Origin: an uncultured Bacteroidales bacterium | GTDB lineage: Bacteria; Bacteroidota; Bacteroidia; Bacteroidales; FEN-979 | Direction: 5' to 3' | NCBI GenBank assembly: GCA_903845055.1 | Contig: CAIMWF010000061.1 | Span: 1 to 51,914, forward strand | DNA length: 51,914 nucleotides | Shown: one piece after another, positions 15,257 through 43,649 of the stretch | Layout: every line of letters begins with the position of its first letter | Position numbering within the stretch: position 1 is the stretch's first letter | The notes under the pieces: model-generated | Databases searched by the model: none | What the model saw: the letters and a program-made list of their open reading frames with translations, nothing else | What the model was told of the DNA's origin: nothing | Position numbers and translations under genes: made by a program

Positions 15257-16489
15257 TCAATACAGGTACCCGGAACCGCAGGAGTTTTCAATTTCGCCCC
15301 GTTTCCTGATCAGACCGACCCTGCCGCCGGCATCCAAAGAAACTTCGGCAGGATGGGTGAACCCGCAAAAATTATAGGGGGAAAGGGAGGCAGTATAGGC
15401 GCCAACATTACGGATCATGACTAGGTCGCCGGTTTCAACATCCGCAAATTCCGTTTCGTTTTGGATGATATCCAGCGGGGTGCATGATGCCCCGGTGAGA
15501 ATGGCAGGAGAATATTGCCGGTACTCCTTTACGGTGTGGATGCACAGTTTTCGCGCAGGATCGAACAACTTTATCCCGAGATGGTTGATTCCCGTATCGA
15601 GCAGGATGTATTTTTTGCCTTTGGAATATTTAACGTCGAGCACAGAGCTAACCAGGGTAGCGGAGGTTGTGGTAAGGTACCTGCCGCTTTCAAAGAATTT
15701 GTACCGGACCGTCCCCAGGAATTCTCTCTTCATTTCGAACAGGCCGGCAAGCCCCGATTTCAGCTCTTCCATGTCAAGTTCACGGGGATCAGCCTGGTCG
15801 GACACCCCGAACCCGCCCCCGAAATCAAGGAAATCAAGATGGTCGAACTCATCTTTGTGTTTTTCCGCGAATTCAGCCAGGTACCTGGTATTCTGAATGA
15901 TATTCCGCGCATCAAAATACTGTGACCCGGTGAACATGAAAAGACCGTTTATGCTGGCAAATTTTCGGTATTTCCTTATCAGGGGAATGACTTCATTTTC
16001 GTCAACGCCAAACTGGGATGAAAGACCTCCCATTTTCAGCATGGAGTCACCATTTGTAAAACCGGGGTTGATCCTGACGGAGATGTTAACCCGGTGACCG
16101 GAAGACTGTATGATGTTTTGCAAATCCCGTTCCGATTCAACGTTGAACGACAGGATACGGTTCGATATGGCCAGCGCAATCGCCTCTTTGCTTTTGATGG
16201 GGCCTCCCAGCGCCATGTTCCCGGGATCGATCCCCGATTTGAGCACATGCTGCAGTTCACCGGCCGATGCAACTTCAAAACCAAGGCCCGCCCGGTTAAA
16301 ATGCTTCAGGACAAAGGGGTTGGGATTGGCCTTGACCGAATACAACAGGCGTGAGCCGGATGGCAGTGTATTTTGCAGCGTTGCCAGCCGTTTGTTCAGT
16401 TCATCACCAGAATATATGACCAGCGGTGTTGCATATTTTTTAACCAGTTCAGCAAGGTCGTTCACCGGTGCCGTGTATGGATGGTTCAT
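15257..16489 (-). CDS. PLP-dependent fold-type III decarboxylase of the biosynthetic operon
   Basis: 410 residues, alanine-racemase-like barrel plus beta domain. K53 in YSVKANPNP forms the PLP Schiff base; GGGFGV (224-229) and E267-S-G-R-Y bind phosphate; C336 in ASCTPLD and the GAYTASLSPYNF loop complete the dimeric active site. The usual His that stacks on PLP in lysine/ornithine/diaminopimelate decarboxylases (HxGS) is Phe here (FMFTGSQ), as in the diverged branch that includes exosortase-associated and natural-product enzymes such as BtrK. BtrK decarboxylates an aminoacyl group on a carrier protein, so a carrier-bound or released acidic residue is a reasonable candidate substrate. Last gene of the operon, 37 bp after the methyltransferase. 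Substrate is inference. Confidence 0.8.
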   Translation of the reverse strand: MNHPYTAPVNDLAELVKKYATPLVIYSGDELNKRLATLQNTLPSGSRLLYSVKANPNPFVLKHFNRAGLGFEVASAGELQHVLKSGIDPGNMALGGPIKSKEAIALAISNRILSFNVESERDLQNIIQSSGHRVNISVRINPGFTNGDSMLKMGGLSSQFGVDENEVIPLIRKYRKFASINGLFMFTGSQYFDARNIIQNTRYLAEFAEKHKDEFDHLDFLDFGGGFGVSDQADPRELDMEELKSGLAGLFEMKREFLGTVRYKFFESGRYLTTTSATLVSSVLDVKYSKGKKYILLDTGINHLGIKLFDPARKLCIHTVKEYRQYSPAILTGASCTPLDIIQNETEFADVETGDLVMIRNVGAYTASLSPYNFCGFTHPAEVSLDAGGRVGLIRKRGEIENSCGSGYLY

Positions 16490-16526
16490 ATCCGTTTATT
16501 TTGCAGGGGAAGCATGGAAATGTTCG

Positions 16527-17576
16527 TTAAGCCGCTGGCGTTATACCCAGTTCAATAATGCTCCTTCCGGTTTTTGTCAGCAGGGTTTTTGTAATTTCAA
16601 ACCCTGCGCCGAAAAACAGCTCCCTGTATTCATGGAATGTCCGTTCCTGTCCGCCGACGAGGATGAAAAAGTTCATGTCCATCCAGGGGGCGATGCTTTC
16701 GGCGTCCGCATCCTCACTCATCAGGTGTTCGATGACCAGCACCCGTTTTTCCCGGGCCCCCGGCGAACCGGTTATCGCCAGGTGCAAGGTATTCAGGATG
16801 AGCCTGACCTTTTCCACAGGCCAGTTGTGAAGGATGTTCTTCATGGTATACAGGTCGCCGGTCGCCGGAACCGACTCGAAAAAATTGCCGCCCGTCAGCG
16901 TGATCCTCTCCGACAGGGGGTCTTCCGGAAGGATGACGGATGCCAGGGTTTCTTCGAGATCAAACAGGGTGCCATGCATGCCCGGGTTTGATTCCATGAC
17001 GGCCCTGAGGAAGGTGCCGTGTCCGCCGCCCACATCCACGACATGGTCAAAACGGCTGAAATCATAGTTTTTTGCAAGTGTTTCATTTTCCGTAACCGAG
17101 AGATTGGTCATCGCTTTCTGAAATACTTCAAGGTGGGCGGGTTTATCCTTCAGGAAATCGAGGGAGCCGCTTTTGTGCGTTTCCGAGAAACCCTCCCCGC
17201 TTCCTGCCCTCAGCACGCCGGTGATTTTGCCCCAGGGCTCGTACCTGTAAAATGCGCCGTTTAACAGGGCTGCATCACGCTGACTGCCTGGGTGGTTGCG
17301 AAGAAGGTATTTTCCGAAATCCGTCAGGGTGATATCCTTCGTGCCGGCATCGATCATGATAAACTTCAGTTGCGCGCAGCAGCGTAGAAACCTGAAGAGG
17401 ATGGCAGGTTCTATGCCTGTCTTATTTGCCAGGTACCCGATGTTTTTCGTACCATCGACGAGGATCTCGGCAAGTTCCAACTCGGCAAAAGCACTGGTGA
17501 TGCATGTTTGCCAGTTTCCGTAGATGAATCCCCGCATCCGGGCAATGGCTGTTTCATGAGTTTGTTCCATGTCCAT
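16527..17576 (-). CDS. SAM-dependent O-methyltransferase (class I, COMT-like)
   Basis: 349 residues with an N-terminal winged-helix dimerisation domain (about 15-100) and a Rossmann SAM domain. The SAM motif is VVDVGGGHGTFLRAV (179-193); FDLEE holds the acidic ribose ligand; H250 in MKNILHNWPVEK is the expected catalytic base of plant-type COMT and bacterial small-molecule O-methyltransferases (Methyltransf_2). It would methylate a hydroxyl, possibly a phenol, on the assembly-line product or on the starter acid. Possible starts are Met1, Met3 or Met14; the first two directly follow the transferase gene by about 30 bp. The role as a tailoring enzyme is inferred from the operon. Confidence 0.85.
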   Translation of the reverse strand: MDMEQTHETAIARMRGFIYGNWQTCITSAFAELELAEILVDGTKNIGYLANKTGIEPAILFRFLRCCAQLKFIMIDAGTKDITLTDFGKYLLRNHPGSQRDAALLNGAFYRYEPWGKITGVLRAGSGEGFSETHKSGSLDFLKDKPAHLEVFQKAMTNLSVTENETLAKNYDFSRFDHVVDVGGGHGTFLRAVMESNPGMHGTLFDLEETLASVILPEDPLSERITLTGGNFFESVPATGDLYTMKNILHNWPVEKVRLILNTLHLAITGSPGAREKRVLVIEHLMSEDADAESIAPWMDMNFFILVGGQERTFHEYRELFFGAGFEITKTLLTKTGRSIIELGITPAA

Positions 17577-17607
17577 TTGTTCGTCAGTTCATACAGGTTG
17601 TCAGAGG

Positions 17608-18390
17608 TTAAGCGTTGCCCGCCGGCATATTGATCGTATTGAACAACGCGGTCATTGCCCCGTCAATGTTTTGTCCTGCCGGGTAAGCAACGGCTGCCAT
17701 TCCGCCCGGGATGGCAACCGCAAGGGCATTGAATGCCGTCAGGTGTTTAAACAGGCACCTTTGTACCGGGCGAAGTCCGATCCCAACGGTTTCGACACGG
17801 TCGGTTTCATACCAATCGGCCGGGACACGAAAACCCAGTCCCAGGGCTTTCCCCGCGGCCTCCTTTACGGTCCAGAGGAGATGGATCAGATCAAGGGGAT
17901 CTTTTTCCCTGTTGCACAGTTCTTTTTCATGGGGGGTCAGCATGAAGGCGATTATTTCGCGGTTTTTTTCCGAAATGGATTCGACGTCGATCCCCATGCG
18001 AAAGGAGAGGGGAAAACACAACCCCGCATTCCAGCCTGCGTCGTGCGCGATGGAGACGCCATAAGGCCGCGGTGCATTGGCAAGAAGGGGCTCCCCGAGG
18101 CAGCCCGTTTCAATGTTCAGGCGAACCGGGGGAATATCCGGGAACACCATGTTAGCCGCCATTTTCCCTGCAATCCGGCCATGAAGGAACGAACGCCTTC
18201 GGATATCCGAGGCAAACCCGACCCCTCTTTCCAGTTCTTCGGGGTGTAGCATTCTCCCGGCTTTTTCCAGCAGCGCTTCCCCGCTGAGGACGCGAAAAAG
18301 GACAATGCCGGCTGCCAGGGGCTCATTGTCCGGGAAAAGGGAAAATGCCGATTGAAAAGTGTCCGTCAGGTTATCCGTCATATTTTTCAT
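17608..18390 (-). CDS. Sfp-type 4'-phosphopantetheinyl transferase
   Basis: About 260 residues from the ATG at 18390 (MKNMTDN); a second ATG at 18381 is equally possible. Both overlap the end of the NRPS gene (stop 18371-18373), implying translational coupling. Family signatures: VSIAHD, GIDVESI (Mg-binding Asp and Glu) and LWTVKEAAGKALGLG, the W-x-x-KEAxxK motif. The enzyme transfers phosphopantetheine from CoA to the conserved Ser of carrier domains; this operon has four such domains (three PCPs and one ACP), and this is the evident activator for them. Length is that of Sfp-type rather than AcpS-type enzymes. Confidence 0.88.
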   Translation of the reverse strand: MKNMTDNLTDTFQSAFSLFPDNEPLAAGIVLFRVLSGEALLEKAGRMLHPEELERGVGFASDIRRRSFLHGRIAGKMAANMVFPDIPPVRLNIETGCLGEPLLANAPRPYGVSIAHDAGWNAGLCFPLSFRMGIDVESISEKNREIIAFMLTPHEKELCNREKDPLDLIHLLWTVKEAAGKALGLGFRVPADWYETDRVETVGIGLRPVQRCLFKHLTAFNALAVAIPGGMAAVAYPAGQNIDGAMTALFNTINMPAGNA

Positions 18391-21300
18391 TTTCCGTTTC
18401 CGGTGAACACGAATCCACCCATTTCTCCAAGGCCAGCGCCAGGTTCCTGACACAGGGCTGCGTTATGATGGTAACATGGTTTCCGGGGATATTTTCGATG
18501 GTCAGGTCTCCTTTGATCCATCGTCCCCAGTTTAGGTCGGAGGTTCTCTCCTGCGGTGGCCGATTCCCCGCCGGCGGCAGTTGTTCCCCGGCCCGGATGA
18601 GCAGCGTTTTCCCCTCAAAGGTCCCCGGCCGGCATGCAGCAGTGATCTCATTATGGCGGATCATCAGTTCAAGATACCCGTGGAAATCGCGGAGGGGCAT
18701 ATCGGGAGGTACGAGGCCAACCGACCTGAAGGCCTCCAGGAAGGATTCCGAATGCTCTTCCGGGCTCCTTCCTCTCAGCTCCTCCTCCCTGATACCCAGG
18801 GGGCGGCCGACAAGCTGCGCCACCTTCCCTGAAAAGACCATCAACCGGCCGACAGGGTCGGTTATCTTCTCCTCCGGGCATGCAGATTCTTCAACGGGTG
18901 CGAGCTGGTCGATGATCATCAGTCCCGGATGCACCCCCGATCGCTCCCCGACCTGGCGGGCCATCTCGAAGGCGATAAGCGCCCCCATCGACCACCCGGC
19001 GAAAATCACATCGTCGATGCCGGCCGGCAGGCTGATCTCTTCCAGGTAAAGCGCGGCCATGTCGCTTACAGTGTTCACCTCTTTGCCGTAAAGACCGGCC
19101 GACTGCAGTCCGTAAATTGTATATTCCTTTCCCAGTTCCCTCGCCAGTTCATAATAGCATAGCACATTCCCGCCTGCCGGGTGAACCAGATACAACTGTT
19201 TTTTCCCGTTCCCGGGCCTGACAGGAACCAGCGATTTTGTTTGAAGGGATCCGCTTGATTTGCGAATGACACCCGCGAGGGCCATCACACTGCCATGCTC
19301 AAAAAGGGTGGCCAGCGGCAGGTGGATCCCGAATGCCTTCTCGATAGCGGCAAACAGCTGGATGGCCAGCAGGGAATGCCCGCCAAGGTCAAAGAAACCC
19401 TGGTCGATGCTTACCTCTGATTGGGAAAGGATATCCCTGAAAATGTTGACCAGCATCAGTTCCGTAAGATCGCGTGGCAGCAGGACCTTGTTTTGCCTTT
19501 CTCCTGAAGGTTTCACCATCCTGGTCAGCTCTTTCATGGAGATTTTCCCGTTTGTGTTTACCGGGAAGCTGTCGAGCACCTGGATGAATGACGGGATCAT
19601 GTATGATGGAAGCCGGCATGAAAGCCACCTCCTCAGTTCCTGTTCATCATACGTCGCGCCGGGCCTGACCATAACCGCTACTCCTACTGCACTTACCGGT
19701 TCAGGATCATCAGGGATGAGCACGACCGATTGTTCAACGGAGGGAAACCTGTTCAGGACATTTTCAATTTCGCGGGTCTCAACCCGGTAACCCCTTATTT
19801 TCAACTGGTGGTCTATCCGCCCCAGAAACGTCACCGATCCGTCCCCGTTCATTTTGCCATGATCCCCCGTAAAATAGATCCGCTCTCCCGGGCGGAATCG
19901 ATCCACGGAAAATTTTTCCTGCGTCAGGTCCGGTTGGTTCAGGTATCCCGGTGAGATGTTTCTTCCGCTGAGAACGATTTCTCCGGCGACCCCCTTCGGA
20001 AGGAGCCGATGCTGCGGATCAAGGATATAAACGGAGGTGTTGTCAAGCGGGAACCCGATGGGGAAACCGGATGTTCCGGAATCCGGGTGCGATGGTATTT
20101 CATACGTGAGGGACCCGATCGTCGCCTCCGTCGGTCCATAGTGGTTGATGATCCTGAGTCCTTGGGAGAGGTCCCTGGCCAGTTCGACGATTCCCGGCAG
20201 ACATTTTTCACCCCCCAGCACCAGCAGTTTCCGAGGCAGCAACTTCCCGGCCCGGCCCGAATGGAGCAGGCTCTGCAGGTGCGAAGGAACGATCTTGAGA
20301 CAATCGACGGGCTCTCTTTCCAGCCATTCGGCAAGCAGGGAGGCATCAGTCGCGTGATCTTCGGGGATAACCACCACCTCGCCTCCGTGGATCAGCGGGG
20401 GGAAGATCATCGTATTGCCCAAGTCGGCCGAGATGGAGGAAATGGTGGCAAATGAATCGCCTTCCAACAGGTTCATCCTTTGCCATGCGGTTTTGGAGTA
20501 ATTCAGCAGTTGATCAAACTCCACGCAAACCCCTTTTGGCGTGCCGGTGGTGCCTGAGGTATAGATCACATAGGCCGGGTCGCCCGGGGCCCCTGTACCG
20601 GGGTTTTCTATAAATCCAGGGGTTTCCGGTTCATACATGATTTCGTGGAAGCATAGAACTGGCACCTGCGCAGGACCCGCTGATGCTGAAAGCCCGGAGT
20701 TGCTGATGATCAGCTTCAGGCCTGCATCGGCGGCGATGAATCTCATCCGTTCCTCCGGGAGGTTGACATCGAGCGGAACATAGGCTGCACCTGCCCTGAA
20801 CAAACCCAGGATTGAAACAATCAGAGAGGCGTCACGCGGAAGCAGCAACCCGACACGATCGCCCTTCACGACATGATGCTGTTCAAGGACATCCGCCAGG
20901 TGGCCTGAAGCGACGTCAAGCTCCCTGTAGGTGAGACGCTGGGCACGGTCGCGCACGGCCATGCGGCCGGGGGTGAGTTGCGCCTGTTTCCTGAATTCGT
21001 GCAGCCAGGTCATAGGGAAAGTGGTACCCTCCTCCGTGAATACAGCGGTTTTACCGTTACAGGATGAACCTTCGCGGAGGGGAAAATATTCAAGCAAGCA
21101 GACCGGTTCCATGGGATGTCTGATCAGCGACCGCAGGAGGATCTTGTAGTTAAGCAGCAGTTTCCTGACCGTTTCGGGAAGGAAAATGTCGCGGGGATAG
21201 GTCACCGAGAGGATCAGTTCGTGGTTCGCCTCTTCCACCCAGAAATTCAGGTCGAATTTGGAATAGGAATAATCGATGCTTTCGGGCTTGACAGTCAGCC

Positions 21301-22537
21301 CGCTGACACTGTATAAAGAGGGGATGTTCTGGTGAACGAAATGGACCTGGAAGAGGGGGTTGGTGCTCAGGTTCCGATCGGGATTGACCTCTTCGATCAG
21401 CTTTTCAAACGGGAGTTCCTGGCGGTTGAAAGCCTGCTGGCAGTAATTCCTGATCTCTTTCAGGTATTCTGACCCGGTGACCCCTTCGTTGATCTTCACA
21501 CGGAGCGGCAGGGTGTTGATAAACAAACCCATGGTCTGCTGAAAGGCAATCTGGTTGCGCCGCGCCACCGGGACCCCTACCATGATATCCTTCTGCCCGC
21601 TGTAGTTTGATAAAAGAAGGGCGAAGGAGCCAAAAAGTAGCTGGAAGAGCGTAAGGTTTTCCTGCTGGCAGAATTGCCTGATCGTCTCGGTTTCGGCAGC
21701 CCCGAGCGTATCCGCCTCTTTGCTTCCCCGGTGCGACATCTGCGCCGGCCTGGGGAAGTCAAACGGCAGGCGAAGGGGCTCGGGCAACCCGGCCAGTTGC
21801 TCTTTCCAGAAGGCCAGCTGTTCCTGGTACTGAGGGGCGTTCATCCACTCTTTTTCCCATTTTACAAAATCGGCATACTGGTACTCCGGGACAGGGAAAG
21901 GGGGGGGCTGGTTGTGTTCAAGGGCCGCATAGGTCATTGAAAGTTCTTTCGCGAACAGGGCGTTCGACCACCCGTCGGAAATGATGTGATGCGGGTTGAT
22001 CAGCAGCAGGTATTCCAGATCTCGCAAACGGAGCACCCTGAACCTCAGCAGGGGAAGCCTGTCGAGGGGAATGAGGATCTTTCCGTGCGCCACCGCCTCT
22101 TCCATGGCCCTTTTTTCCCGTTCGTCTTCAGCGAGGAGCCGGAGATCCTCAAATGATATTTCCGTGTTCCCTGAAGGATGAACCCGCTGCACCGGGTTCC
22201 CCTCCTTTACATGGAAGGTGGTGCGCAGGATCTCATGCCTCTCGGCCAGCATGCCAAGGCTTCGGCTCATGATATCCGTATCGAGGGGGAAAACCGCCGT
22301 AATCCGCAGGGACACAGGGTTGTTGTAGATGGCTTCTCCCTCGGTCAGGTTGTGCAGGAACCACATGCGCTCCTGTGCCTTCGACAAGGGGTATGTTTCT
22401 TCGGGGTTTCGCTCCATTTTCGCCGGTTTGCCGATGCGCGGCGCAGCCTCGTCCCTGCCCTTCCTGAGCAGGGCTTTGAGCTGGTCGGGGCTTAATCCCG
22501 ACAACCGTTCGCTGAGTGATCTCTCCTCTTTTGCCAT
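18371..22537 (-). CDS. terminating NRPS module C-A-PCP-TE, Asp-like specificity
   Basis: 1388 residues. The start at 22537 follows the enoylreductase stop by 13 bp and has an AAAGGA ribosome site; the longer frame lies inside the upstream gene. Order: short N-terminal helix SGLSPDQLKALLRKG; condensation domain (about 45-490) with active HHIISDG at 183-189; adenylation domain (510-1010) with YTSGTTGTPKG and the A10 Lys 998 in NTNGKIS; carrier domain with Ser1055 in LGGHSL; type I thioesterase with nucleophile Ser1183 in GWSMG and a C-terminal His in PGNHVTI. The ten specificity residues read by eye are D-L-T-K-V-G-H-I-G-K, the published code for aspartate (for example the surfactin synthetase Asp module). 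It would add Asp to the polyketide-extended chain and release it. Confidence 0.9.
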   Translation of the reverse strand: MAKEERSLSERLSGLSPDQLKALLRKGRDEAAPRIGKPAKMERNPEETYPLSKAQERMWFLHNLTEGEAIYNNPVSLRITAVFPLDTDIMSRSLGMLAERHEILRTTFHVKEGNPVQRVHPSGNTEISFEDLRLLAEDEREKRAMEEAVAHGKILIPLDRLPLLRFRVLRLRDLEYLLLINPHHIISDGWSNALFAKELSMTYAALEHNQPPPFPVPEYQYADFVKWEKEWMNAPQYQEQLAFWKEQLAGLPEPLRLPFDFPRPAQMSHRGSKEADTLGAAETETIRQFCQQENLTLFQLLFGSFALLLSNYSGQKDIMVGVPVARRNQIAFQQTMGLFINTLPLRVKINEGVTGSEYLKEIRNYCQQAFNRQELPFEKLIEEVNPDRNLSTNPLFQVHFVHQNIPSLYSVSGLTVKPESIDYSYSKFDLNFWVEEANHELILSVTYPRDIFLPETVRKLLLNYKILLRSLIRHPMEPVCLLEYFPLREGSSCNGKTAVFTEEGTTFPMTWLHEFRKQAQLTPGRMAVRDRAQRLTYRELDVASGHLADVLEQHHVVKGDRVGLLLPRDASLIVSILGLFRAGAAYVPLDVNLPEERMRFIAADAGLKLIISNSGLSASAGPAQVPVLCFHEIMYEPETPGFIENPGTGAPGDPAYVIYTSGTTGTPKGVCVEFDQLLNYSKTAWQRMNLLEGDSFATISSISADLGNTMIFPPLIHGGEVVVIPEDHATDASLLAEWLEREPVDCLKIVPSHLQSLLHSGRAGKLLPRKLLVLGGEKCLPGIVELARDLSQGLRIINHYGPTEATIGSLTYEIPSHPDSGTSGFPIGFPLDNTSVYILDPQHRLLPKGVAGEIVLSGRNISPGYLNQPDLTQEKFSVDRFRPGERIYFTGDHGKMNGDGSVTFLGRIDHQLKIRGYRVETREIENVLNRFPSVEQSVVLIPDDPEPVSAVGVAVMVRPGATYDEQELRRWLSCRLPSYMIPSFIQVLDSFPVNTNGKISMKELTRMVKPSGERQNKVLLPRDLTELMLVNIFRDILSQSEVSIDQGFFDLGGHSLLAIQLFAAIEKAFGIHLPLATLFEHGSVMALAGVIRKSSGSLQTKSLVPVRPGNGKKQLYLVHPAGGNVLCYYELARELGKEYTIYGLQSAGLYGKEVNTVSDMAALYLEEISLPAGIDDVIFAGWSMGALIAFEMARQVGERSGVHPGLMIIDQLAPVEESACPEEKITDPVGRLMVFSGKVAQLVGRPLGIREEELRGRSPEEHSESFLEAFRSVGLVPPDMPLRDFHGYLELMIRHNEITAACRPGTFEGKTLLIRAGEQLPPAGNRPPQERTSDLNWGRWIKGDLTIENIPGNHVTIITQPCVRNLALALEKWVDSCSPETENEKYDG

Positions 22538-22550
22538 TGTGTTATCCTTT

Positions 22551-23696
22551 TCAGGGGTAAGTAAGTACAAGTTTCCCGATATGTTTCGCGCGTGAAAGGG
22601 CATTCAGCGCCTCCCTGAGCTGCCCCAACGGGTAGGTTTGGCAGGGGATGGGATTGAAGATCCCGGAATCGAAAAGCCCGGTGATTTCAAGGAGCTGTTC
22701 CTTCAGTTTACGCGGCTGGACCAGGTAGAGTGAAATGTCCAGTACAGAAAAGGTGATCCCGTTTCGGAGCAGTCCCATCGGCAACAGGGTATTTTTCGCG
22801 ATGTCCTTTTTATCGATCTGGATGAACCTCCCGAAGGGCGACAGGATCTCAATCCCACGCATCATGGCATCGCCCGAAAGGGTATTCAGGACCACATCCA
22901 CCCCGCGGCCTCTGGTAAGCTCCATAATCCTGTCACCAAATGCCACCGATCTTGAATCCATCGGGTGACGGATTCCTTTTTTCTCCAGGAATGCTCTTTT
23001 TTCCGGGGATCCGGCCGTGGCAAAGATCTCTGCCTTCTTCCAGGCGGCTATTTCGAGCGCGGCAAGTCCCACCCCGCCGGTGGCGGTATGGATCAGTACG
23101 GATTCCCCGGCGGAGAGATTCGCCAGCCTGACCAGTCCTGAAATGGCGGTTAAAAAAACCGTTGGAATTGCGGCAGCCTCCACGAAGGTAAGGCCGGCGG
23201 GTTTTGCCACCACCTGGAGTTCCGAAACATTGAAAACATTGATGAAATGGCCGCCGGGCTGCACCTTCCCGTCGATGAAACTGCCGGCTGAAAGGGCAAT
23301 GACCGCATCTCCCTCCATGATTCCCTCTACCCCGGCTCCAACAGCGGTAATCACCCCCGAATAATCCGACCCCATGTTCGAGGGCACGCCCTGTGCTTCG
23401 GGATACTGACCCATGGCGATCATCAGGTCGCGGTAATTCAGCCCCGCTGCCTTCGCCCTCACTTGTACGTAGCCCGGAAGAGGATCAGCGGCGACAGCCT
23501 CTCTGAAACTGATGCTGAGCGATCCGGGGCTGCCCGGGTCGCACGAAAAACAATCGTATCCGGGCGAATCGTTCACGACCGGCTTGCCGGGAGGCCCGGT
23601 TCCCCTTACAGAGTCGTACCCCAGCCGTTTCAGCAGGAGCTCTTTTTTTTCAGGCGTCAGCCCTGCGATCTTTTTTAACAGTTCATCATTGTTCAT
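22551..23696 (-). CDS. stand-alone PKS-type enoylreductase with docking-like N-terminus
   Basis: 381 residues of the medium-chain reductase superfamily, zinc-free PKS-ER branch: GLNYRDLMIAMGQYP, GSDYSGVI and the NADPH motif HTATGGVGLAALE (203-215) match ER domains of modular synthases. Residues 1-26 (DELLKKIAGLTPEKKELLLKRL) are an amphipathic helix of the kind that precedes condensation domains and acts as a linker or docking element. A linker and a diverged strand join it to the ER core. The neighbouring PKS has KR and DH but no ER, so this is presumably a trans-acting ER completing reduction of the ACP-bound chain. The ATG overlaps the PKS stop by 11 bp (translational coupling), and the next NRPS starts 13 bp after. 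Confidence 0.86.
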   Translation of the reverse strand: MNNDELLKKIAGLTPEKKELLLKRLGYDSVRGTGPPGKPVVNDSPGYDCFSCDPGSPGSLSISFREAVAADPLPGYVQVRAKAAGLNYRDLMIAMGQYPEAQGVPSNMGSDYSGVITAVGAGVEGIMEGDAVIALSAGSFIDGKVQPGGHFINVFNVSELQVVAKPAGLTFVEAAAIPTVFLTAISGLVRLANLSAGESVLIHTATGGVGLAALEIAAWKKAEIFATAGSPEKRAFLEKKGIRHPMDSRSVAFGDRIMELTRGRGVDVVLNTLSGDAMMRGIEILSPFGRFIQIDKKDIAKNTLLPMGLLRNGITFSVLDISLYLVQPRKLKEQLLEITGLFDSGIFNPIPCQTYPLGQLREALNALSRAKHIGKLVLTYP

Positions 23697-35974: not shown

Positions 35975-36032
35975 TGTTTTTTGCCTTTTCAATATTCCGC
36001 AACCGGTGATGTGTTGATCCTGGGAATCTGCC

Positions 36033-38960
36033 TCAGGCCAGTTGCCGGCGGGTCAGTTCGGCAAAGAACCCGTTCTTTTCGATAAGTTCCCGGTAACTGC
36101 CCTCTTCGATAAGCTGACCTTTGTCAAGTACAAAAATCCGGTCGGCATTCATGATGGTGCTGAGCCGGTGGGCAATCACGATCCGGGTGGCATTCAGTCT
36201 TTCAATGCTGGCGCTCACGATTCCCTGTGTTTCGTTGTCAAGGGCGCTGGTGGCCTCGTCAAAGATGAAAATTTTCGGGTTCCGTATCAGCGCCCGTGCA
36301 ATGACGATACGCTGTTGCTGACCGCCCGACAAAATATCCCCGCCCGGGGGCAGGATGGTGTACATTTTATTGGGAAGGTTCTTGATATCATCGGCACATC
36401 CCGCCATGGACGCGGCTTTCCAGGCATCATCCTCGGTATAGAGCGATGAACCGGTAATGTTGTACAAAACCGTTCCCTGCATGATCCTGGAGTTTTGCAA
36501 CACGACGCCGAACTGGTCGCGGATGCCGCGGATATCCAGGTCTTTCAGTTCCTGGTTGTCAAACAGGATGCTGCCCACATCATACGTTTCAAATCCAAGC
36601 AGCAGCCTCACCAGGGTCGATTTTCCCGAACCAGAACTGCCCGTTATGGCTACGAACTGCCCTGGCTGGATCGTGAGGTTGAGTTCTTTCAGGCTCCAGT
36701 CGGGGGAGTCGGGGTATTTAAAACTCAGCTGGGTGATCTCGATGCCTCCGCTTAACTCACCGGGATCGAGTTTGTCGTTCATATCCTCGGTGTCGGCTTC
36801 CAGGATGGGCTGGAACAACTGGTAGGTAGGCTTTATGTTCAGCAGGGGCACCGTGACCATGAAGGTTTGGATCATGGCCCCCTGGAAGCTCAGATAGGCG
36901 CTGTTGAAAGCCACAAAATCACCAATGCCGAAACCAGGCTGTCCCGAAGTGAAGATGGAATATACCCGGATAAAGATCAGCAGGGAGGCGAGAACCGGGA
37001 AGGTTACCGTGAAAATACCGGCAACCATCAGCAGGTTGCGTTTCTGGCGATAGTGGTCCTTTTGCTGTGCGTACCGGTCGGCCCAGAGCGCGAACACCTT
37101 TTCCTTGCTGCCGGTAACCCTGATCTTGTTGATCCCGCGGATGGCCATCAGCAGGAACCCCGAGATCATGGCATCCATGCGGCGCATGAATGCAACATGT
37201 TTGTAGGCCAGGAGGCTTATGGTAAGCGTAAATCCTGCAACGGCAAGACCTAAAACCAGGGCCAGGAGCGCCAGCTTCAGATCGTAGAAAAACAGGAGTG
37301 CCAGGTAAAAAATGGAAAAAATACCCGAGATCATGGCACCGAGGACGGTCGTGGAGAGGGTGTCGCGTATCCGTTCGATCCCCATGCTGCGTTCGGCAAG
37401 GTTTCCCGGGCTGTAATTCCTGAAGAAGTCGACCCTGAGGGAGAGAATCCGGTCCCACAGGGCCGATTGAAGTTTATAGCCCGCTTTGCCGGCCATGCGG
37501 AGCACGGCGATAGATTTGGCGAAGTTCAGCAGGCCTATCGTGATCACGCAAATGACCATGATGGCCCCAATCTGCCAGAGTTCGTTGGTATCTCCGCCTG
37601 GAATGACGGTGTTGAACACGTAGCCGCCCACCACAGGGATCACCAGGGCAAGCAGTGCGCCGACAACACCGATCACCAGGAAGCTGAACACATCGCGGTA
37701 AGTGAACTTGAGAGCAAACCGCATGAGATCCTTTCCCTGGAGCTTTCCCTTGGGAAACGGGGTAAAAAAACTGTAGGCCCTCGGATCAAGAAGCTTGTGC
37801 ACCGACTGGTTAACCGCCATCTTTTCCTTATTTTTCAGGTCGATCATCCAGTAACCGGAATTTCCACGGGCAATCAGGGCGACCGGTGTCTGGTCCTCCT
37901 TCAGAAACCCGAGCATCGAGCCTGCATTGTTGGTCCACCAGTGGGGTTCCAGGTCAACCATCCTGGAACGGATGTTGGAAGCCCTGAGGATGTTCCACAA
38001 TGCGTCATGTTTTCCGCTGGTGCGGTTGCCCGGATCGGCAAATTCGATCTTTTCACTTTTACCGATCAGCCGGCAGGTCTGCAGCAGCAGCATGTTGGGG
38101 TTCACCGGTACGCCCGGGGCCCCACCGTGGGTTTTGCCCTCTTCGAAGAGGTCGTCGGTCACCTTGCCCGAAATGATGGTTTTAAACCGGCCGAACGCGG
38201 AAAAGATCGCGTTTGTCCTGAAAGCATGGGTGTCACGTACACGGGCAAGGGAGGCTTGCTGGTCATGGGTATAGAGGTTCTGCAGTACGATGACGATCAG
38301 TTCATTAAACCCGAAGAAACCCGCGACAAATGAATCACCGGCAAGAACCTGCGCCGTCGTATATATTGGTTTCTGAACAGTTGCACCCAAACGCATCCAG
38401 AGGTTCGAGGTAAGCGGAAGATGGACCATTCCGCAGCGTAACGGATCGGCATAGTTGTAATAGAGCGGCTTCAGTCCGGCCGATTCGATCCACAGCACCC
38501 TCTCCGGGTCGGAGGCGCTGTAACTTTTCTCCGGGTCGGCCGAAAACGAAGGGGTTGCCGAGATGCCGTTCAGCAGCGGCAGCATCCCGAAATGGTTCAT
38601 GCCCGATGAGATACTGAGGAACCACCTGTCGAAGAGAAGGGTGCTGTAACCCGGATTTGATGCCGTAAGTTCTTTCAATTGTCCCGGATCGATCATCCCG
38701 ACGGTGCAGGCCGTCAGGGCGCAAATTACCATGGAAACAGCAGGATTCTCCCTGAAGGAAGGGATCAGGAACGGGCCGCTGACCCTTATAAGGAAGAGTC
38801 TCCGGCCGGGCCCGGTGGAAAGTTTTTCCACGAAGAAAATATCCGCGTCTCCGGCCTCAAGATAAAAAGCACAAGGGGCATCACACTGCAGGGGAATTGT
38901 CTGATTGCTGACCAGCTGCAGGGTGCGGGAATAAAATGACGAAATAACCTGTTGCTCCAT
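36033..38960 (-). CDS. NHLM-type ABC exporter, second subunit (long N-terminal domain, TM and NBD)
   Basis: 975 residues, the size of the ATP-binding partner of the NHLM (nitrile-hydratase-leader microcin) exporter pair. Residues 1-420 are a soluble region; the family has cyclic-nucleotide-binding-like and peptidase-like segments here (MVDLEPHWWTNNAGSMLGF, PVALIARGNSGYWMID resemble an inactive C39-like fold). Then comes a six-helix type I exporter domain (from FLVIGVVGALLALVIPVVGG) and an ATPase: Walker A GSSGSGKST, signature LSGGQQQR, Walker B IFIFDEATSAL, switch His in IVIAHRLS. The ATPase looks fully active. It starts one base after the stop of the first exporter, so the two probably form a heterodimer. 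Confidence 0.85.
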   Translation of the reverse strand: MEQQVISSFYSRTLQLVSNQTIPLQCDAPCAFYLEAGDADIFFVEKLSTGPGRRLFLIRVSGPFLIPSFRENPAVSMVICALTACTVGMIDPGQLKELTASNPGYSTLLFDRWFLSISSGMNHFGMLPLLNGISATPSFSADPEKSYSASDPERVLWIESAGLKPLYYNYADPLRCGMVHLPLTSNLWMRLGATVQKPIYTTAQVLAGDSFVAGFFGFNELIVIVLQNLYTHDQQASLARVRDTHAFRTNAIFSAFGRFKTIISGKVTDDLFEEGKTHGGAPGVPVNPNMLLLQTCRLIGKSEKIEFADPGNRTSGKHDALWNILRASNIRSRMVDLEPHWWTNNAGSMLGFLKEDQTPVALIARGNSGYWMIDLKNKEKMAVNQSVHKLLDPRAYSFFTPFPKGKLQGKDLMRFALKFTYRDVFSFLVIGVVGALLALVIPVVGGYVFNTVIPGGDTNELWQIGAIMVICVITIGLLNFAKSIAVLRMAGKAGYKLQSALWDRILSLRVDFFRNYSPGNLAERSMGIERIRDTLSTTVLGAMISGIFSIFYLALLFFYDLKLALLALVLGLAVAGFTLTISLLAYKHVAFMRRMDAMISGFLLMAIRGINKIRVTGSKEKVFALWADRYAQQKDHYRQKRNLLMVAGIFTVTFPVLASLLIFIRVYSIFTSGQPGFGIGDFVAFNSAYLSFQGAMIQTFMVTVPLLNIKPTYQLFQPILEADTEDMNDKLDPGELSGGIEITQLSFKYPDSPDWSLKELNLTIQPGQFVAITGSSGSGKSTLVRLLLGFETYDVGSILFDNQELKDLDIRGIRDQFGVVLQNSRIMQGTVLYNITGSSLYTEDDAWKAASMAGCADDIKNLPNKMYTILPPGGDILSGGQQQRIVIARALIRNPKIFIFDEATSALDNETQGIVSASIERLNATRIVIAHRLSTIMNADRIFVLDKGQLIEEGSYRELIEKNGFFAELTRRQLA

Positions 38961-38961
38961 A

Positions 38962-41136
38962 TTAGTTGAGATTAACCAGTTTGAAATAAAGTCCCTCCTG
39001 GTCCCTGATCATCTCATCGTGCGTGCCACGCTGAACGACCTTCCCCTTGTCGAGGACAATGATTTCATCGCAATCGCGGATTGTGCTCAGCCGGTGTGCA
39101 ATGATAAGTGTTGTGCAGCCCCTGCGGCGTATGTTGTTGTCGATGGTCTTTTCGGTATTGGCATCCAGGGCGCTGGTGGCTTCATCCATCACGAGGATCG
39201 ACGGGTTGACGACCAGTGCGCGTGCAATCTCAATCCGCTGGCGCTGTCCGCCGCTGAGGTTGCTGCCGGCATTGATGAGCAGACCTGTGTAACCGCCCGG
39301 CCGCGAGGAGATGACATCGTGAATGCATGCATCCTTGGTCGACTGGATGATATCGGGCGTGCCGATGGTGTTGTTCCACATGGTAATGTTATCGTTGACG
39401 GTTCCCTTGAAAAGGAAGATCTCTTGGTCTACTAGGGAGACGGAGTTCCGGATTACGTCCTGTGGATAGAAACTGCGCTGGCGGCCATCAAACAGGATCT
39501 CTCCCGCCCATGGATGGTGGAGCCCCGCAACCAGTTTGGCCAGGGTCGATTTCCCCGATCCGGAACCTCCAACAAGGGCGATCCGTTTTCCCGGTTCCAC
39601 ATGAAGCGAAAAGTTCTCGATCAGCGGTTCGCGGAAACGGTCATATCCGAAGGTGACATTCTTAAAGTCGAGGAATCCGTGCAGTTTTGAATCAGCGGGG
39701 TCGTAATGCTTCAGTTTATCGTCGGCATCATTGTAAAAAAAGATATCCTCCCTCGTCGATAAGGCATCCTGCATGGTATCGATGTTGCTTTTGGCCACCT
39801 GCAGGTCGCTGCCCATGGAGACCACCGTTTTGACGGGGCCGGTGAAGTTCGACATCAGGCTCTGGAAGGCGATAAAAATACCGATCGTCATCTCACCGTA
39901 GATAACCAGCAACCCTCCGAGGGTCAGCAGGATGATGTTGTTCAGGTTCGAAAGGAAATCGGGCAGGGCGTCGAGCAGGTTGGAGGTAAAGTTCAGTTTC
40001 TGATCATAGACCACCGCGTTGGAAAGGTTGCCCGACCAAAGGCCGTAAAAATCGTTTTCCGACCCCGTGGCCTTGATGGTCTCAATTTGCTCCAGGCCGA
40101 CCCCGGCGGTGCTGAAGGTGCGCTGGTTGCGTTCAAAAAGCAGCTGGTTGAGGGTGGCGCGCTTTTCGGAAATGATGCGGAGCACAAAGAGGTTCACCAG
40201 GATCACGGTAACCCCGATCACCGTGAGAAGCACGTTGTACTGGATCATCACCACGGCGTAAAAGATCACCGTGGTCATGCTGGCCAGAGTTTCTATCAGC
40301 TGGGTCGAAAGGAGCGATGCCAGGTCGTCATTAAGCTGCACCCGTTTGAAAATTTCGCCCGGCTGACGCGCGGTAAAGAAGCGGATGGGCAATTTCAGGA
40401 TATGCATCAGCAACCTCGACGACTCGACAATGGCAAGACGCAGTTCGATCTTGACCAGGATCTTTTGCTGCAGGTAGGTGAGAATGCCGTTGAAAAAGAA
40501 AAGGCCGGCAATGAGTGCCAGCATGGGCCTGAAATACCGCGGCTGGTTTAAATTGATAATGTCGTCAAAGAAGAGTTTGTTAAGCCCCGCCATGATGATG
40601 GCCGGGATGATCAGGATGACGCCGCACAACAGCACGAATGCCAGGTCATACCTGCTTGGCTTTATCCGTTCCCATACCCTGGCGGGAAATCCATCCCGCT
40701 GCCTTTCGGTTTTGAAACCGGCACCGGGTGTGAGGATCACGGCCGTGCCGTCGTAAATTTGTTCAAATTCGTTTTCGCTGAGCTTCTTTTTTCCTTCGCG
40801 GGTGTCGTTGATGAGGTAACTGTCTTTTGTAAAACCTGTTATCACGGCGTAGTAACCGCCATGAAGGCCGGCGATCAGTGGCATCTGGTGCGATTTCAGC
40901 GCCGCCGCAGGGCAGGTGATGACCTCCGAATCAAACGCATGCTGACTTGCAACATCGGTCAGCCTGCCTGCCGGTATCTTTGAATTGTCGGAAACGCCGC
41001 ATTCAAGGTTCAGCGCATCCTTTGACGGGTAGCAATGGTAATATGAAAAAACCATCGTGAGCGCGACCGGCCCGGATTCATTATCACCGATCTGGAGTAT
41101 GACCGGAACCCTTTTTTTCACATGCTCATCTTTCAT
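38962..41136 (-). CDS. NHLM/PCAT-type ABC exporter with degenerate C39 peptidase domain
   Basis: 724 residues: N-terminal C39-like domain (1-140), six transmembrane helices (about 160-440), and an ATPase (GGSGSGKST, LSGGQRQR, ILVMDEATSAL, IIAHRLS). In bacteriocin exporters the peptidase starts with a Q-x-x-x-x-E-C-G-A motif; here it reads LQIGDNESGPVAL, so the nucleophile is Ser21 instead of Cys. The catalytic His position is GGYYAVI, with Tyr95/Tyr96 in place of His; the Asp remains (D111 in LINDTREG). The domain is therefore probably a non-cleaving substrate-recognition module, as in HlyB-type transporters. It sits directly after the HlyD gene and pairs with the next exporter. Confidence 0.87.
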   Translation of the reverse strand: MKDEHVKKRVPVILQIGDNESGPVALTMVFSYYHCYPSKDALNLECGVSDNSKIPAGRLTDVASQHAFDSEVITCPAAALKSHQMPLIAGLHGGYYAVITGFTKDSYLINDTREGKKKLSENEFEQIYDGTAVILTPGAGFKTERQRDGFPARVWERIKPSRYDLAFVLLCGVILIIPAIIMAGLNKLFFDDIINLNQPRYFRPMLALIAGLFFFNGILTYLQQKILVKIELRLAIVESSRLLMHILKLPIRFFTARQPGEIFKRVQLNDDLASLLSTQLIETLASMTTVIFYAVVMIQYNVLLTVIGVTVILVNLFVLRIISEKRATLNQLLFERNQRTFSTAGVGLEQIETIKATGSENDFYGLWSGNLSNAVVYDQKLNFTSNLLDALPDFLSNLNNIILLTLGGLLVIYGEMTIGIFIAFQSLMSNFTGPVKTVVSMGSDLQVAKSNIDTMQDALSTREDIFFYNDADDKLKHYDPADSKLHGFLDFKNVTFGYDRFREPLIENFSLHVEPGKRIALVGGSGSGKSTLAKLVAGLHHPWAGEILFDGRQRSFYPQDVIRNSVSLVDQEIFLFKGTVNDNITMWNNTIGTPDIIQSTKDACIHDVISSRPGGYTGLLINAGSNLSGGQRQRIEIARALVVNPSILVMDEATSALDANTEKTIDNNIRRRGCTTLIIAHRLSTIRDCDEIIVLDKGKVVQRGTHDEMIRDQEGLYFKLVNLN

Positions 41137-41166
41137 AACAAGTTCCCTGTTGATTGGTAATGAGGA

Positions 41167-42417
41167 TTATTCGAAAAATGATTTAAAAACGGGGATGATG
41201 TAATCAATGGGAGGCCTTTCCTTGACCAGGACGGAAGCTTTGCAGAGGGTACCTGTATTGATGGTGTAGGGAGGCCCTGTTTTATTTGACCACTGGAACC
41301 CGCTTTTCGTATTGGGATCGGTTTTAAGGGAAATTTTAACCCTGTAGGTCGGACCCTGTTGCTGGATCAGTGCCACAAGGTCGGTGTTGTTCAGTTCATC
41401 GACGATCGAGTTGGTATTGGAAACAAAATGGTTTACCTCGACGACCTGCCCGATCAGCCAACCGTAAAGATTGTGGTTGACCGTGAAAGGTTCGATCATC
41501 ACCTGCATTCCTGGTGTAACTACAGCGTTCGAGTTGAACGGGATGAACAGGTCAAGCAAGTGGTTGCTCTGGTTTTCAAGATCTTCAACCACCATCATCC
41601 GCGTGCCGGCATTGACGAAATCGCCGTTTGTTACCGATTTGTCCACGACGAAACCGTTGACCGGGCTGCGGATGATGGTCTGCCGGTCATACTCATCCTG
41701 GAGGTCGGTGATCTTTTTCTTCAGGACCAGGATCTGTCCATTGTAATCCTGTTGCTTGTATTGCCGGTCATAGTTCCACGATTGCTGTTCCAGCTGGTTG
41801 GTTTTCACCTCCTGTTCGGTCTGGATTCGCTGGTTATGCGCCTTGGAGAGCTGGTTCTTCGCATCCACGTAATTCTCTCTGGTAGCAAGTCCTTTCTCCC
41901 AGAGATCTTTCTGCTGGTTCATTTTGAGTTCGAAAAAGTCGACCTGGTCCGTTAACTGTGAAAGCTCCTTGTTCAGGCGCTCCTCTTCGAGACTGTAATA
42001 CCTTATTTTATTAGGATAATCCAGCACATTCCTGGTGGTTAGCAGGGAATCCTGCAATTTCAGCACATCGAACTGGGCGTTCAGCTCGACGAGCTGGTGT
42101 TTGAGCTGGGGCTGAAGCAGGTGGAGCAGGATGTCGCCCTCCTTTACCTTTTCCCCCAGCTCAAAATTAACCTCCTCCACACCCCCCGGGTAAAGAGAAA
42201 TGATCCCGTGAAGTCCCTTGCCGCTGACAATTTCACCCAACCCGTCGATGCGCTGGGGAATGCTGCCAAAGATCCCCCACAACAGGGTGATGAACGTGAG
42301 CAATGCCAGTGCTGAAAGGGATATCCAGTAACGCGGACGCGTTATTTTCAACATGCGGTTCATCTCTTCAGGATTGCCCGCTGCTCCCGATGGCTGCGAA
42401 TTTTCTGCCTTATCCAT
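41167..42417 (-). CDS. HlyD-family periplasmic adaptor (NHLM secretion-protein type)
   Basis: 416 residues with one N-terminal transmembrane helix (about 30-52, WISLSALALLTFITLLW). A split lipoyl/barrel module (EIVSGKGLHGIISLYPGGVEEVNFELGEKVKEGDILL) and long helical hairpins rich in Gln/Leu (about 95-235) follow. A return barrel segment (IRSPVNGFVVDKSVTNGDFVNAGTRMMVVEDL) and a beta domain close the protein. This is the membrane-fusion architecture that bridges inner-membrane exporters to TolC. Gene order HlyD, exporter 1, exporter 2, TolC supports a complete export machine. Confidence 0.86.
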   Translation of the reverse strand: MDKAENSQPSGAAGNPEEMNRMLKITRPRYWISLSALALLTFITLLWGIFGSIPQRIDGLGEIVSGKGLHGIISLYPGGVEEVNFELGEKVKEGDILLHLLQPQLKHQLVELNAQFDVLKLQDSLLTTRNVLDYPNKIRYYSLEEERLNKELSQLTDQVDFFELKMNQQKDLWEKGLATRENYVDAKNQLSKAHNQRIQTEQEVKTNQLEQQSWNYDRQYKQQDYNGQILVLKKKITDLQDEYDRQTIIRSPVNGFVVDKSVTNGDFVNAGTRMMVVEDLENQSNHLLDLFIPFNSNAVVTPGMQVMIEPFTVNHNLYGWLIGQVVEVNHFVSNTNSIVDELNNTDLVALIQQQGPTYRVKISLKTDPNTKSGFQWSNKTGPPYTINTGTLCKASVLVKERPPIDYIIPVFKSFFE

Positions 42418-42492
42418 AGTGAAATTTGTTGCTGAGTAACAAAAAACGGAGAATGACCGGTTGTGTGGAACAACCCATAGGAAAAGAAGAAA

Positions 42493-42861
42493 TTACTGAT
42501 CCGTGAATTTCTTCATGTATTTCATTCCCTCTTCTTTGAGTTTGGGGTCGCAATTGCCATCGGCGTCGAGGTGGTGTTTTTTATGATGTTCCATCTGCGC
42601 TTCCATAAACCCCGACATTTTAAAGTTATCAAGACTGATATTCGGCATGGTGGGCATCGGGGGCATCTTCGGGGCATTGAAGCCATCCATCACAGGGCCG
42701 CCCTCGGGAGGTTCGCCTGACGCACTGTCCGTGCCTGGCAGGGAGGCTTCTGGGGTTCCGGGTGTACCGGCAAGGTCGGGCGTGCTCGCGGTTTTGGGCG
42801 TTCCGGGAGTGTTCGGAGTCTGGGGAGGGGAGGGGATGGCATACTTCTTTTTTGTTTCCAT
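42493..42861 (-). CDS. small Pro/Thr-rich orphan protein of the export operon
   Basis: 122 residues, no signal peptide (METKKKYAIP start). Residues 8-45 are low complexity with repeated TP and GTP units (TPNTPGTPKTASTPDLAGTPGTPE); 54-55 are Gly-Gly (PPEGGPVMDG); 64-75 are Pro/Met-rich (PKMPPMPTMP); the C-terminal third is helical and charged with a HHKKHH cluster (92-97), a single Cys104 in DADGNCDPK and KYMKKFTDQ at the end. I recognise no family. It lies second in the 13-gene operon, between a membrane protein and the HlyD adaptor, where NHLM systems often keep their substrate or accessory genes. It could be an exported peptide, a scaffold for the exporter or an assembly-line docking factor; none is shown by sequence. 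Confidence 0.65.
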   Translation of the reverse strand: METKKKYAIPSPPQTPNTPGTPKTASTPDLAGTPGTPEASLPGTDSASGEPPEGGPVMDGFNAPKMPPMPTMPNISLDNFKMSGFMEAQMEHHKKHHLDADGNCDPKLKEEGMKYMKKFTDQ

Positions 42862-42896
42862 GACATTGAAATTTAATAGGTTAACATTATTTGTAG

Positions 42897-43538
42897 TTAC
42901 TGCAATTCTAGGACAGGGTTCGCTTTAAGAGACTGTATTTTCCGGATGATGAGAAAGATTCCGTAAATGAACATCACCGTTGTCAGGGTGCTCCATACCT
43001 GGGTGATGACACTGATTTTATTGTAGCCAGCCACATCATAATGACGGATAAGAAAAATTCTCAGCATGATGTTGATGAAATCGCGGGCCGCCAGGAAAAT
43101 GGTGAGAAACAGGAAATACCTGAAATAGGGCATTTCCCGGTAAAGGACACGGGTCCGTTCTTTCGGGACCCCGTGCAGGTAAGCGTAGTCGATGAAAAAA
43201 TAGAGGGCCATGGGCCTTCTCGCCAGGATGGTGATGCACCAGAAGGTCACCAGCCCGATGTTAAGATAAACGTAGTTCCAGAGCACCTGGTGGGCCGTCC
43301 TTGAATCTAAATTCAGCATACAGCTGATGAGCATGCTGGCAAGAATGAACATACCGGTTACGCTGTATTGCTTTTCCTTAAAAAAGGTGTAAAGCGTGTA
43401 AAGAATACCCGGAAAGGTCGACAGGAGCATGGCAAGGTAATCGCCTAAGGACGACTGGCAGGTATTCCAGATGAACAATGGAACACCAAGGTACACGACC
43501 AAGTCAAGCAGTGTTCGCTTGTTTAGGATTTTTGACAT
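42897..43538 (-). CDS. polytopic membrane protein, first gene of the operon
   Basis: 213 residues with about six hydrophobic helices, starting TLLDLVVYLGVPLFIWNTC and GDYLAMLLSTFPGILYTLYTFFKEKQYSVTGMFIL. The pattern resembles the VC0807-type family of small integral membrane proteins (a resemblance judged by eye, function unknown); the Cys/Trp-rich middle and the YLHGVPKERTRVLYREMPYFR loop are the only long soluble parts. It follows the operon promoter by a leader of about 75 nt containing a hairpin, and the next gene starts 35 bp after it. Possibly an immunity, self-resistance or transport accessory protein; unproven. Confidence 0.7.
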   Translation of the reverse strand: MSKILNKRTLLDLVVYLGVPLFIWNTCQSSLGDYLAMLLSTFPGILYTLYTFFKEKQYSVTGMFILASMLISCMLNLDSRTAHQVLWNYVYLNIGLVTFWCITILARRPMALYFFIDYAYLHGVPKERTRVLYREMPYFRYFLFLTIFLAARDFINIMLRIFLIRHYDVAGYNKISVITQVWSTLTTVMFIYGIFLIIRKIQSLKANPVLELQ

Positions 43539-43560
43539 CAGTAAAAAAAATAATCATGTT

Positions 43561-43590
43561 CAAAAAGAATACCACCCCGAAATGAGGTGG
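43561..43590 (-). promoter_or_regulatory. leader hairpin in the 5' UTR of the biosynthetic operon
   Basis: On the minus strand CCACCTC (43590-43584), loop ATTTC, GGGGTGG (43578-43572) form a 7-bp stem with one wobble pair, followed by the T-rich run TATTCTTTTTG. It lies between the predicted transcript start (about 43612) and the first ATG (43538). The shape is that of a weak intrinsic terminator, so it may attenuate the operon, or it may be an RNA stability element. Confidence 0.5.
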
Positions 43591-43618
43591 CAAAAAAATA
43601 AGCATCCAAATAATGAGG

Positions 43619-43649
43619 CAAATATAGAACAAATGTTATGGAAAACCAA
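43619..43649 (-). promoter_or_regulatory. operon promoter TTG-N20-TATATTTG
   Basis: On the minus strand TTG (43649-43647), 20 nt, then TATATTTG (43626-43619) matches the Bacteroidota -33/-7 consensus with ideal spacing. It drives the 13-gene operon ending at 15257; the only other gaps of note inside the operon (58 bp before TolC and 58 bp before the first NRPS) hold no full match. Confidence 0.7.

Follow-up and report, generated by a model that had tools for sequence, protein, structure and literature searches.

An NHLM-type exporter with degenerate protease residues, encoded with a hybrid NRPS-PKS assembly line in uncultured Bacteroidales

We report here on a hybrid nonribosomal peptide synthetase-polyketide synthase (NRPS-PKS) operon and its export genes in a 51,914-nucleotide stretch of DNA from an uncultured Bacteroidales bacterium (GenBank assembly GCA_903845055.1, contig CAIMWF010000061.1, positions 1 to 51,914), called the window below. 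The window corresponds to contig C61 in a draft genome of 3.95 Mb that is 95% complete and consists of 175 contigs. The window operon comprises 13 open reading frames (ORFs) on the minus strand, from 43538 down to 15257. The operon as a whole is of ordinary make, and what is unusual is its export half: a protease-dead exporter of the NHLM type is tied to the NRPS-PKS genes and to a pair of orphan genes, g1 and g2. The first-pass annotation of this stretch mentioned neither the NHLM type of the exporter, nor the dead protease, nor g1 and g2. We consider it moderately likely that the protease-disabled exporter has been re-used for an NRPS-PKS product of the kind starter-Gly-C2-Asp, with g1 and g2 as partners or cargo. 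The gene order, the family relationship of the exporter, the loss of its catalytic residues and its co-occurrence with the assembly line are direct observations.

The exporter and its C39 domain

The export machine is encoded by four consecutive genes on the minus strand. The HlyD-type adaptor (41167..42417) scores 257.9 bits against TIGR03794 (cut-off 156.2), and ABC2, the second ABC subunit, which carries an N-terminal extension (36033..38960), scores 785.6 bits against TIGR03797 (cut-off 709.4), so that both lie above the curated NHLM cut-offs. ABC1 (38962..41136) reaches 805.1 bits against TIGR03796, the NHLM peptidase/ABC model, and falls below its cut-off of 853.3. The fourth gene encodes a TolC/OEP outer-membrane channel (34445..35992; PF02321), whose start is probably an ATG a few codons further in. 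At an E-value of 1e-170, an NHLM ABC1 was found in 30 of 395 Bacteroidota genomes; 29 of them pass the cut-off, and only the window's own is below it.

The N-terminus of ABC1 is a C39 domain by sequence (PF03412, 2.3e-18; 6mpz, 3.8e-10). A Foldseek search matched it to C39 domains and to the C39-like domain (CLD) of HlyB with a probability of 1.00 and a template-modelling (TM) score of about 0.6, using a model with a mean predicted local distance difference test score (pLDDT) of 61.8 that drops below 50 at residues 1-42, which include the position of the catalytic cysteine. The catalytic residues of the C39 protease LahT are Cys27, His101 and Asp117, as given in an excerpt of PMC6363468. In ABC1, the cysteine is replaced by serine in all ten operon copies, and the histidine by tyrosine in nine of them and by asparagine in the tenth (G029). 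The aspartate is retained in eight of the ten and lost in G029 and G035. A further locus, L044, has Ser and Asn at the Cys and His positions. Among other NHLM ABC1 proteins, on the other hand, Cys, His and Asp are all retained in 33 of 33 distinct sequences (34 rows), four from genomes of the window's own family (f1) and 29 from other Bacteroidota. The cysteine, the only position examined there, is also kept in three plasmid-borne NHLM exporters. In a tree of 36 ABC1 rows, the operon copies form one clade (support 100) that lies within the NHLM set (forks 91/82). Judged from its sequence, the exporter is thus of the NHLM type, which normally ships leader-bearing ribosomal peptides, with the protease residues lost.

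As a separate observation, intact NHLM exporters are also present in two of the operon genomes, at G008:C3 (L038) and G029:C55 (L039), where they adjoin ORFs that we read by eye as precursors of NHLP-type ribosomally synthesized and post-translationally modified peptides, with Gly-Gly near the C-terminus. Beside the window exporter, where very short ORFs were not systematically scanned, the search for a leader-bearing Gly-Gly precursor gave only g2, which has no NHLP-type site. The open-licence literature, covered through titles and the beginnings of abstracts and hence weak evidence of absence, yielded no NHLM or C39 exporter linked to NRPS-PKS genes; the C39 transporters treated in an excerpt of PMC4558948 belong to bacteriocin clusters.

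Distribution of the operon and the g1/g2 pair

We have searched a set of 61 genomes, consisting of the window's own, 36 others of family f1 and 24 of the order. ABC1 orthologues with 80-83% identity occur in nine genomes besides the window's own, all of family f1: three more in one genus, two of two in a second and four of four in a third (genus handles g1, g2 and g8, distinct from the genes). A PKS search at E 1e-150 returned exactly these ten genomes, and the assembly line and the exporter were therefore not found apart in this set. The gene g2 has the same distribution (10/10 operon genomes, none of the 51 others), and g1, searched at E 1e-8, is found in all ten and in one of the other 51. 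The earlier proposal that the exporter goes with the assembly line is in this way borne out in the window and nine other genomes.

The conserved core consists of 11 genes, namely g1, g2, HlyD, ABC1, ABC2, TolC, NRPS1, PKS, enoylreductase (ER), NRPS2 and 4′-phosphopantetheinyl transferase (PPTase). Six of the nine relatives (G008, G019, G025, G026, G032, G035) have it on a single contig, with the gene order unchanged. In the other three (G009, G014, G029) it is split by contig ends; the remaining pieces were located on further contigs, except the ER of G029, which was not found on the contigs searched, and the gene order across these breaks is one that we infer. An apparent second operon in G035, on contig C67 (L131, 16161 bp), was rejected, as it is 100% identical to the G026 operon and therefore represents contamination of the G035 metagenome-assembled genome (MAG).

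A further scan gave six relatives with 80-83% identity, all uncultured Bacteroidales or Bacteroidetes MAGs with the labels LacPavin, Kiruna2, Kiruna, AM5, KR and Ja1, which we take to be mostly lake samples. One of these, KR_bin-2728, was taken as a further locus beyond the nine (L044); its stretch spans g1 to the start of the PKS. In a scan of 393 genomes drawn from the order, with two candidates scored per genome, ABC2 orthologues were found only in the window's own genome and in G025, and three other genomes had relatives of 34-40%.

The first gene of the operon, g1 (42897..43538, minus strand), encodes a VC0807-family membrane protein (NF041646, 86.5 bits, cut-off 65). It is followed by g2 (42493..42861, minus strand), which encodes a Pro-rich orphan protein of 122 amino acids with no family match in Pfam or NCBIfam at E 0.001. 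A C-terminal HH...HL...G pattern of g2 is invariant in nine aligned rows, while the Pro-rich part is variable, and an NHLP-type Gly-Gly cleavage site is absent. Among four equal-length copies, the ratio of nonsynonymous to synonymous substitution rates (dN/dS) is 0.07-0.24 in five of the six pairs, the sixth being saturated at synonymous sites; by this measure g2 is under purifying selection. Its structure, predicted from the single sequence, is mostly unstructured (mean pLDDT 59.7). In L044, an open frame of 294 amino acids runs through both g1 and g2 with no intervening stop (L044:6988-7872), while they are separate ORFs in all other loci read. Misassembly could account for this single case, as could a separate start inside the frame.

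What the operon makes, what is exported and what g1 and g2 do are matters that we infer from these data. In the explanation that we favor, the HlyD-ABC1-ABC2-TolC machine would be a descendant of NHLM machines, which cleave ribosomal peptides and export them. The loss of Cys and His in ABC1 would be expected if the cargo carries no leader in need of cutting. The C39-like fold that remains would most likely recruit a partner, for which g2 is the best candidate, and g1 would be its membrane partner.

Another option is that g2 itself is the cargo, exported uncleaved in an HlyB-like manner, with the NRPS-PKS product leaving by another route or acting in the cell. It would fit with this option that g2 directly precedes hlyD and that the intact NHLM loci of the family, read by eye, likewise have precursor-like ORFs near the exporter. 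The restriction of g2 to genomes with this exporter and its lack of an NHLP-type Gly-Gly site, together with the missing protease residues of ABC1, point the same way, and in HlyB the degenerate C39 domain is required to recruit the unfolded substrate (excerpts of PMC6363468 and PMC8277102). However, the length of g2 ranges from 67 to about 160 amino acids with a poorly conserved Pro-rich part, its in-frame union with a membrane protein in L044 would be odd for a cargo, and the exporter was not found without the megasynthase in the 61 genomes. We regard g2 as the cargo as rather unlikely. A further possibility, which we rate as quite improbable, is that g2 and the NRPS-PKS product leave through the exporter together, as a conjugate or in a tight complex. 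In this case g2 would be an encoded carrier or acceptor peptide to which the product is bound, or onto which it is acylated, and which the dead C39 domain recognises for secretion without cutting. If true, this would be a ribosomal/nonribosomal hybrid in which a peptide serves as the ticket for a small molecule.

We have also considered that the exporter could be a general efflux or self-protection pump, linked to the assembly line through co-inheritance and not through a shared task. The block is indeed inherited as a unit within one family, which means that linkage alone is no proof of function. On the other hand, PKS, ABC1 and g2 occur together in ten genomes, which belong to three genera, while the other 51 lack all three, and the change in the C39 domain is confined to this clade among the proteins compared. 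We find this scenario improbable as well.

The assembly line, its tailoring genes and the operon layout

The assembly line consists of NRPS1 (29281..34386; A1-T1-C-A2-T2), the PKS (23686..29268; KS-AT-KR-DH-ACP), a free ER (22551..23696; assigned by family profiles) and NRPS2 (18371..22603; C-A3-T-TE), all on the minus strand, and is followed by the PPTase (17608..18453, minus strand; PF01648). Domain profiles and motif alignments of nine PKS, nine NRPS1 and eight NRPS2 sequences show the KS, AT, KR, T, C and TE catalytic motifs to be intact; the PKS piece of G009 is cut, with DH and ACP outside its alignment row. The adenylation (A) domain specificity positions were mapped by hand with GrsA numbering. 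With this numbering, A1 has the code AA(S/T)Y(Y/C)SLANK and lacks Asp235, and therefore probably does not load an ordinary alpha-amino acid. An exosortase-linked ligase model scores A1 at 215.7 bits, only slightly above A2 (203.8) and A3 (190.5). The A2 code is of the DI(I/L/F)QI type and Gly-like, the A3 code in the window is DLTKVGHIGK, which we take to be an Asp code, and the AT motif is HAFH, presumably malonyl-specific. The alignments agree with the first-pass description of a hybrid line with a starter code unlike that of an amino acid, Gly-like and Asp codes and a reducing PKS.

On this basis, A1, lacking the usual means of recognising an alpha-amino group, would load a carboxylic acid as starter, and A2 would add glycine or another residue of similarly small size. 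The chain would be extended on the PKS by one malonyl unit, which the KR, DH and free ER would reduce. NRPS2 would then add aspartate, and the TE would free a starter-(GABA-like)-Asp product (GABA, gamma-aminobutyric acid). The N-termini of the ER and NRPS2 start with short motifs that resemble each other, and the C-terminal tail of the PKS is acidic (eight copies each). By eye, these termini resemble docking pairs of a putative class. A search at E 5 with the NRPS2 N-terminus gave no solved docking relative, only a single meaningless match (0.34), and the excerpted text of a review, PMC9113145, places beta-hairpin docking domains on several enzymes, ERs not among them.

It is important to point out that several observations weigh against the explanation we favor, that a protease-disabled NHLM exporter is re-used for the starter-Gly-C2-Asp product. 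On the export side, the 33 comparison proteins were picked by NHLM score (E 1e-170 or better) or by likeness to ABC1, and the comparison set favors intact proteases for that reason. The nested placement of ABC1 in the tree is not firm, with two forks below 95 and a long branch. In addition, peptide or protein binding is known for C39-like domains, and one would therefore not by default expect exporters of this type to carry a small molecule. As to the product, the DH motif has the H and D without the usual last Pro; the A2 code does no more than resemble that for Gly, and two of nine loci have Thr at position 301; and an exact A3 Asp code is confined to the window, six of eight loci deviating from it at one position and G008 at three.

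Behind the PPTase lie an O-methyltransferase (16527..17576; PF00891) and a BtrK-like pyridoxal phosphate (PLP) decarboxylase (15257..16489), both on the minus strand. These two tailoring genes are optional and are found at either end of the fixed core. O-Methyltransferases at E 1e-10 occur in all 15 genomes searched, mostly with 26-34% identity, and a close homologue (67%) is found in only one of the nine other operon genomes, G029, where it adjoins the PPTase end. The decarboxylase is upstream of g1 in three of nine relatives (G025, G026, G032) and on a separate contig in G019; at E 1e-30 it was not found in the other five operon genomes or in five control genomes, where incomplete MAGs could hide some. 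The 13 genes thus do not form the fixed unit that had first been described, and the synteny check proposed with the first-pass annotation gives a split result: the export genes are conserved with the NRPS/PKS genes and the tailoring genes are not.

Other genes also vary around the core. A glycosyltransferase-2/FGE-sulfatase fusion of ~620-630 amino acids is located downstream of the PPTase or O-methyltransferase in G014 (L037:4787-6679) and G029 (L071:3267-5135). A delta-60 repeat (DUF5122) beta-propeller protein stands at the operon head in six loci, identified by profile for the L044 copy and by eye for the other five: before g1 in G009 and G035 (~10 bp), before the decarboxylase in G025, G026 and G032, and in L044 before an amidohydrolase-family gene (L044:5079-6965) that itself precedes g1. 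None was present among the tested ORFs upstream of the window operon.

The closest solved relative of the window decarboxylase is BtrK (170.4 bits), with which it shares the CTPxD motif, and the best diaminopimelate decarboxylase scores 129.5 bits. Against TIGR01048 (LysA) it obtains 232.6 bits, below the cut-off of 297.9. A role in the lysine pathway was rejected, a separate lysA with 391.5 bits, above the cut-off, being present on another contig. Two more LysA-like genes below the cut-off (G000:C98:12461-13657 and G000:C58:13788-15011) have scores similar to that of the window decarboxylase.

The first-pass annotation suggested that the Asp-containing product could afterwards be decarboxylated. 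PLP alpha-decarboxylases need a free alpha-amine, and we rejected this route on chemical grounds: the finished Asp residue is an unlikely substrate because its alpha-amine is amide-bonded. BtrK acts on carrier-bound glutamate, converting glutamyl-BtrI to GABA-BtrI, and related enzymes decarboxylate conjugated amino acids (excerpt of PMC7857480). By analogy, it is possible that the decarboxylase acts on a side-chain-loaded starter. The T1-bound amino acid would in that case be of the gamma-Glu or beta-Asp type and become an omega-amine wherever the gene is present, a chemical addition that is compatible with the explanation favored above. The relationship to BtrK with the common CTPxD motif, the absence of Asp235 in A1 and the above-cut-off lysA elsewhere in the genome all speak for it. 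However, the A1 code is nearly unchanged in genomes without the decarboxylase, the G019 gene is on another contig, and the window's genome holds the two other LysA-like proteins, which leaves this a doubtful assignment.

The layout of the operon is compact. From g1 to NRPS1/PKS the intergenic gaps are, in order, 35, 75, 30, 1, 40, 58 and 12 bp; PKS/ER, ER/NRPS2 and NRPS2/PPTase overlap when the longest start is taken for each; and gaps of 31 and 37 bp follow. The 13 ORFs on one strand, with gaps of at most 75 bp or overlaps, were found where the first-pass annotation had placed them, and Pfam and NCBIfam confirm all the protein classes it named: HlyD, C39-ABC, ABC, OEP/TolC, A-T-C-A-T, KS-AT-KR-DH-ACP, ER, C-A-T-TE, PPTase, O-methyltransferase and PLP decarboxylase. 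It had also described one clear promoter. A candidate Bacteroidota promoter, TTGG-N19-TATATTTG (43619..43649, minus strand), is located 80 bp upstream of the first ATG of g1 and is the single match to TTGG-N(16-22)-TANNTTTG in the window, for which 0.81 matches are expected by chance. It is plausible because of its placement before that ATG and not because of the motif match.

At the other end, 134 bp separate the operon from a pirin gene (14349-15122), which has its own TATCTTTG box (15150-15157). Given this gap and its own -7 box, pirin was rejected as an operon member; no pirin match was found in the nine relatives' stretches searched. Further downstream, a lipoprotein-like gene without a Pfam match (12963-13745) has a 56% homologue ~6 kb past the G035 operon (joined stretch 34789-35565). 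Upstream of the operon are an OprB porin (46308-47669), a PagL-like lipid A deacylase (47914-49104) and a protein with a Por secretion tail (49967-51601), all apparently unrelated.

Significance and comparison with known systems

If the favored explanation is true, a peptide exporter of a kind that normally removes leaders has had its protease switched off and now serves a nonribosomal product, and these operons would provide a natural test of the transport role of a C39-like domain once cleavage is gone. Similar systems could be searched for with the orphan pair g1/g2 as a marker. That the core is fixed while the tailoring genes around it change suggests that uncultured, little-known bacteria hold a family of compounds undergoing diversification.

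Like the present machine, the NHLM/NHLP system (TIGR03794, TIGR03796, TIGR03797) combines a HlyD protein with two ABC subunits that differ from each other, a C39 domain forming the N-terminus of the first. TolC can stand alongside, as on a plasmid of Spirosoma oryzicola whose locus also has LanM and an annotated NHLP precursor. The window operon differs in its linkage to NRPS-PKS genes instead of a leader-bearing precursor, in the loss of the protease Cys and His in all ten operon copies, and in an ABC1 below the family cut-off. HlyB-type ABC exporters with a CLD share the degenerate N-terminal C39 domain, HlyD and TolC (excerpts of PMC6363468 and PMC8277102). Unlike them, the window operon has two different ABC subunits and the NHLM relationship; there is no RTX protein among its Pfam and NCBIfam matches.

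As to the decarboxylase, BtrK, the L-glutamyl-[BtrI carrier protein] decarboxylase of butirosin biosynthesis, has the same CTPxD motif, and at the position of the HIGSQ histidine of the diaminopimelate enzyme both have an aromatic residue. In contrast to BtrK, the window enzyme is encoded with NRPS-PKS genes, and a carrier-protein substrate is only putative for it.

Finally, the MacAB-type efflux of nonribosomal siderophores resembles the present case in that a tripartite ABC pump is linked to a nonribosomal product. The pyoverdine pump PvdRT-OpmQ is a similar siderophore case. For linearised enterobactin, a MacAB-dependent protective effect in Salmonella is described in an excerpt of PMC8277102. 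The difference is in the pump itself: unlike MacAB, the window ABC protein is a C39-domain exporter of the HlyB/NHLM kind.

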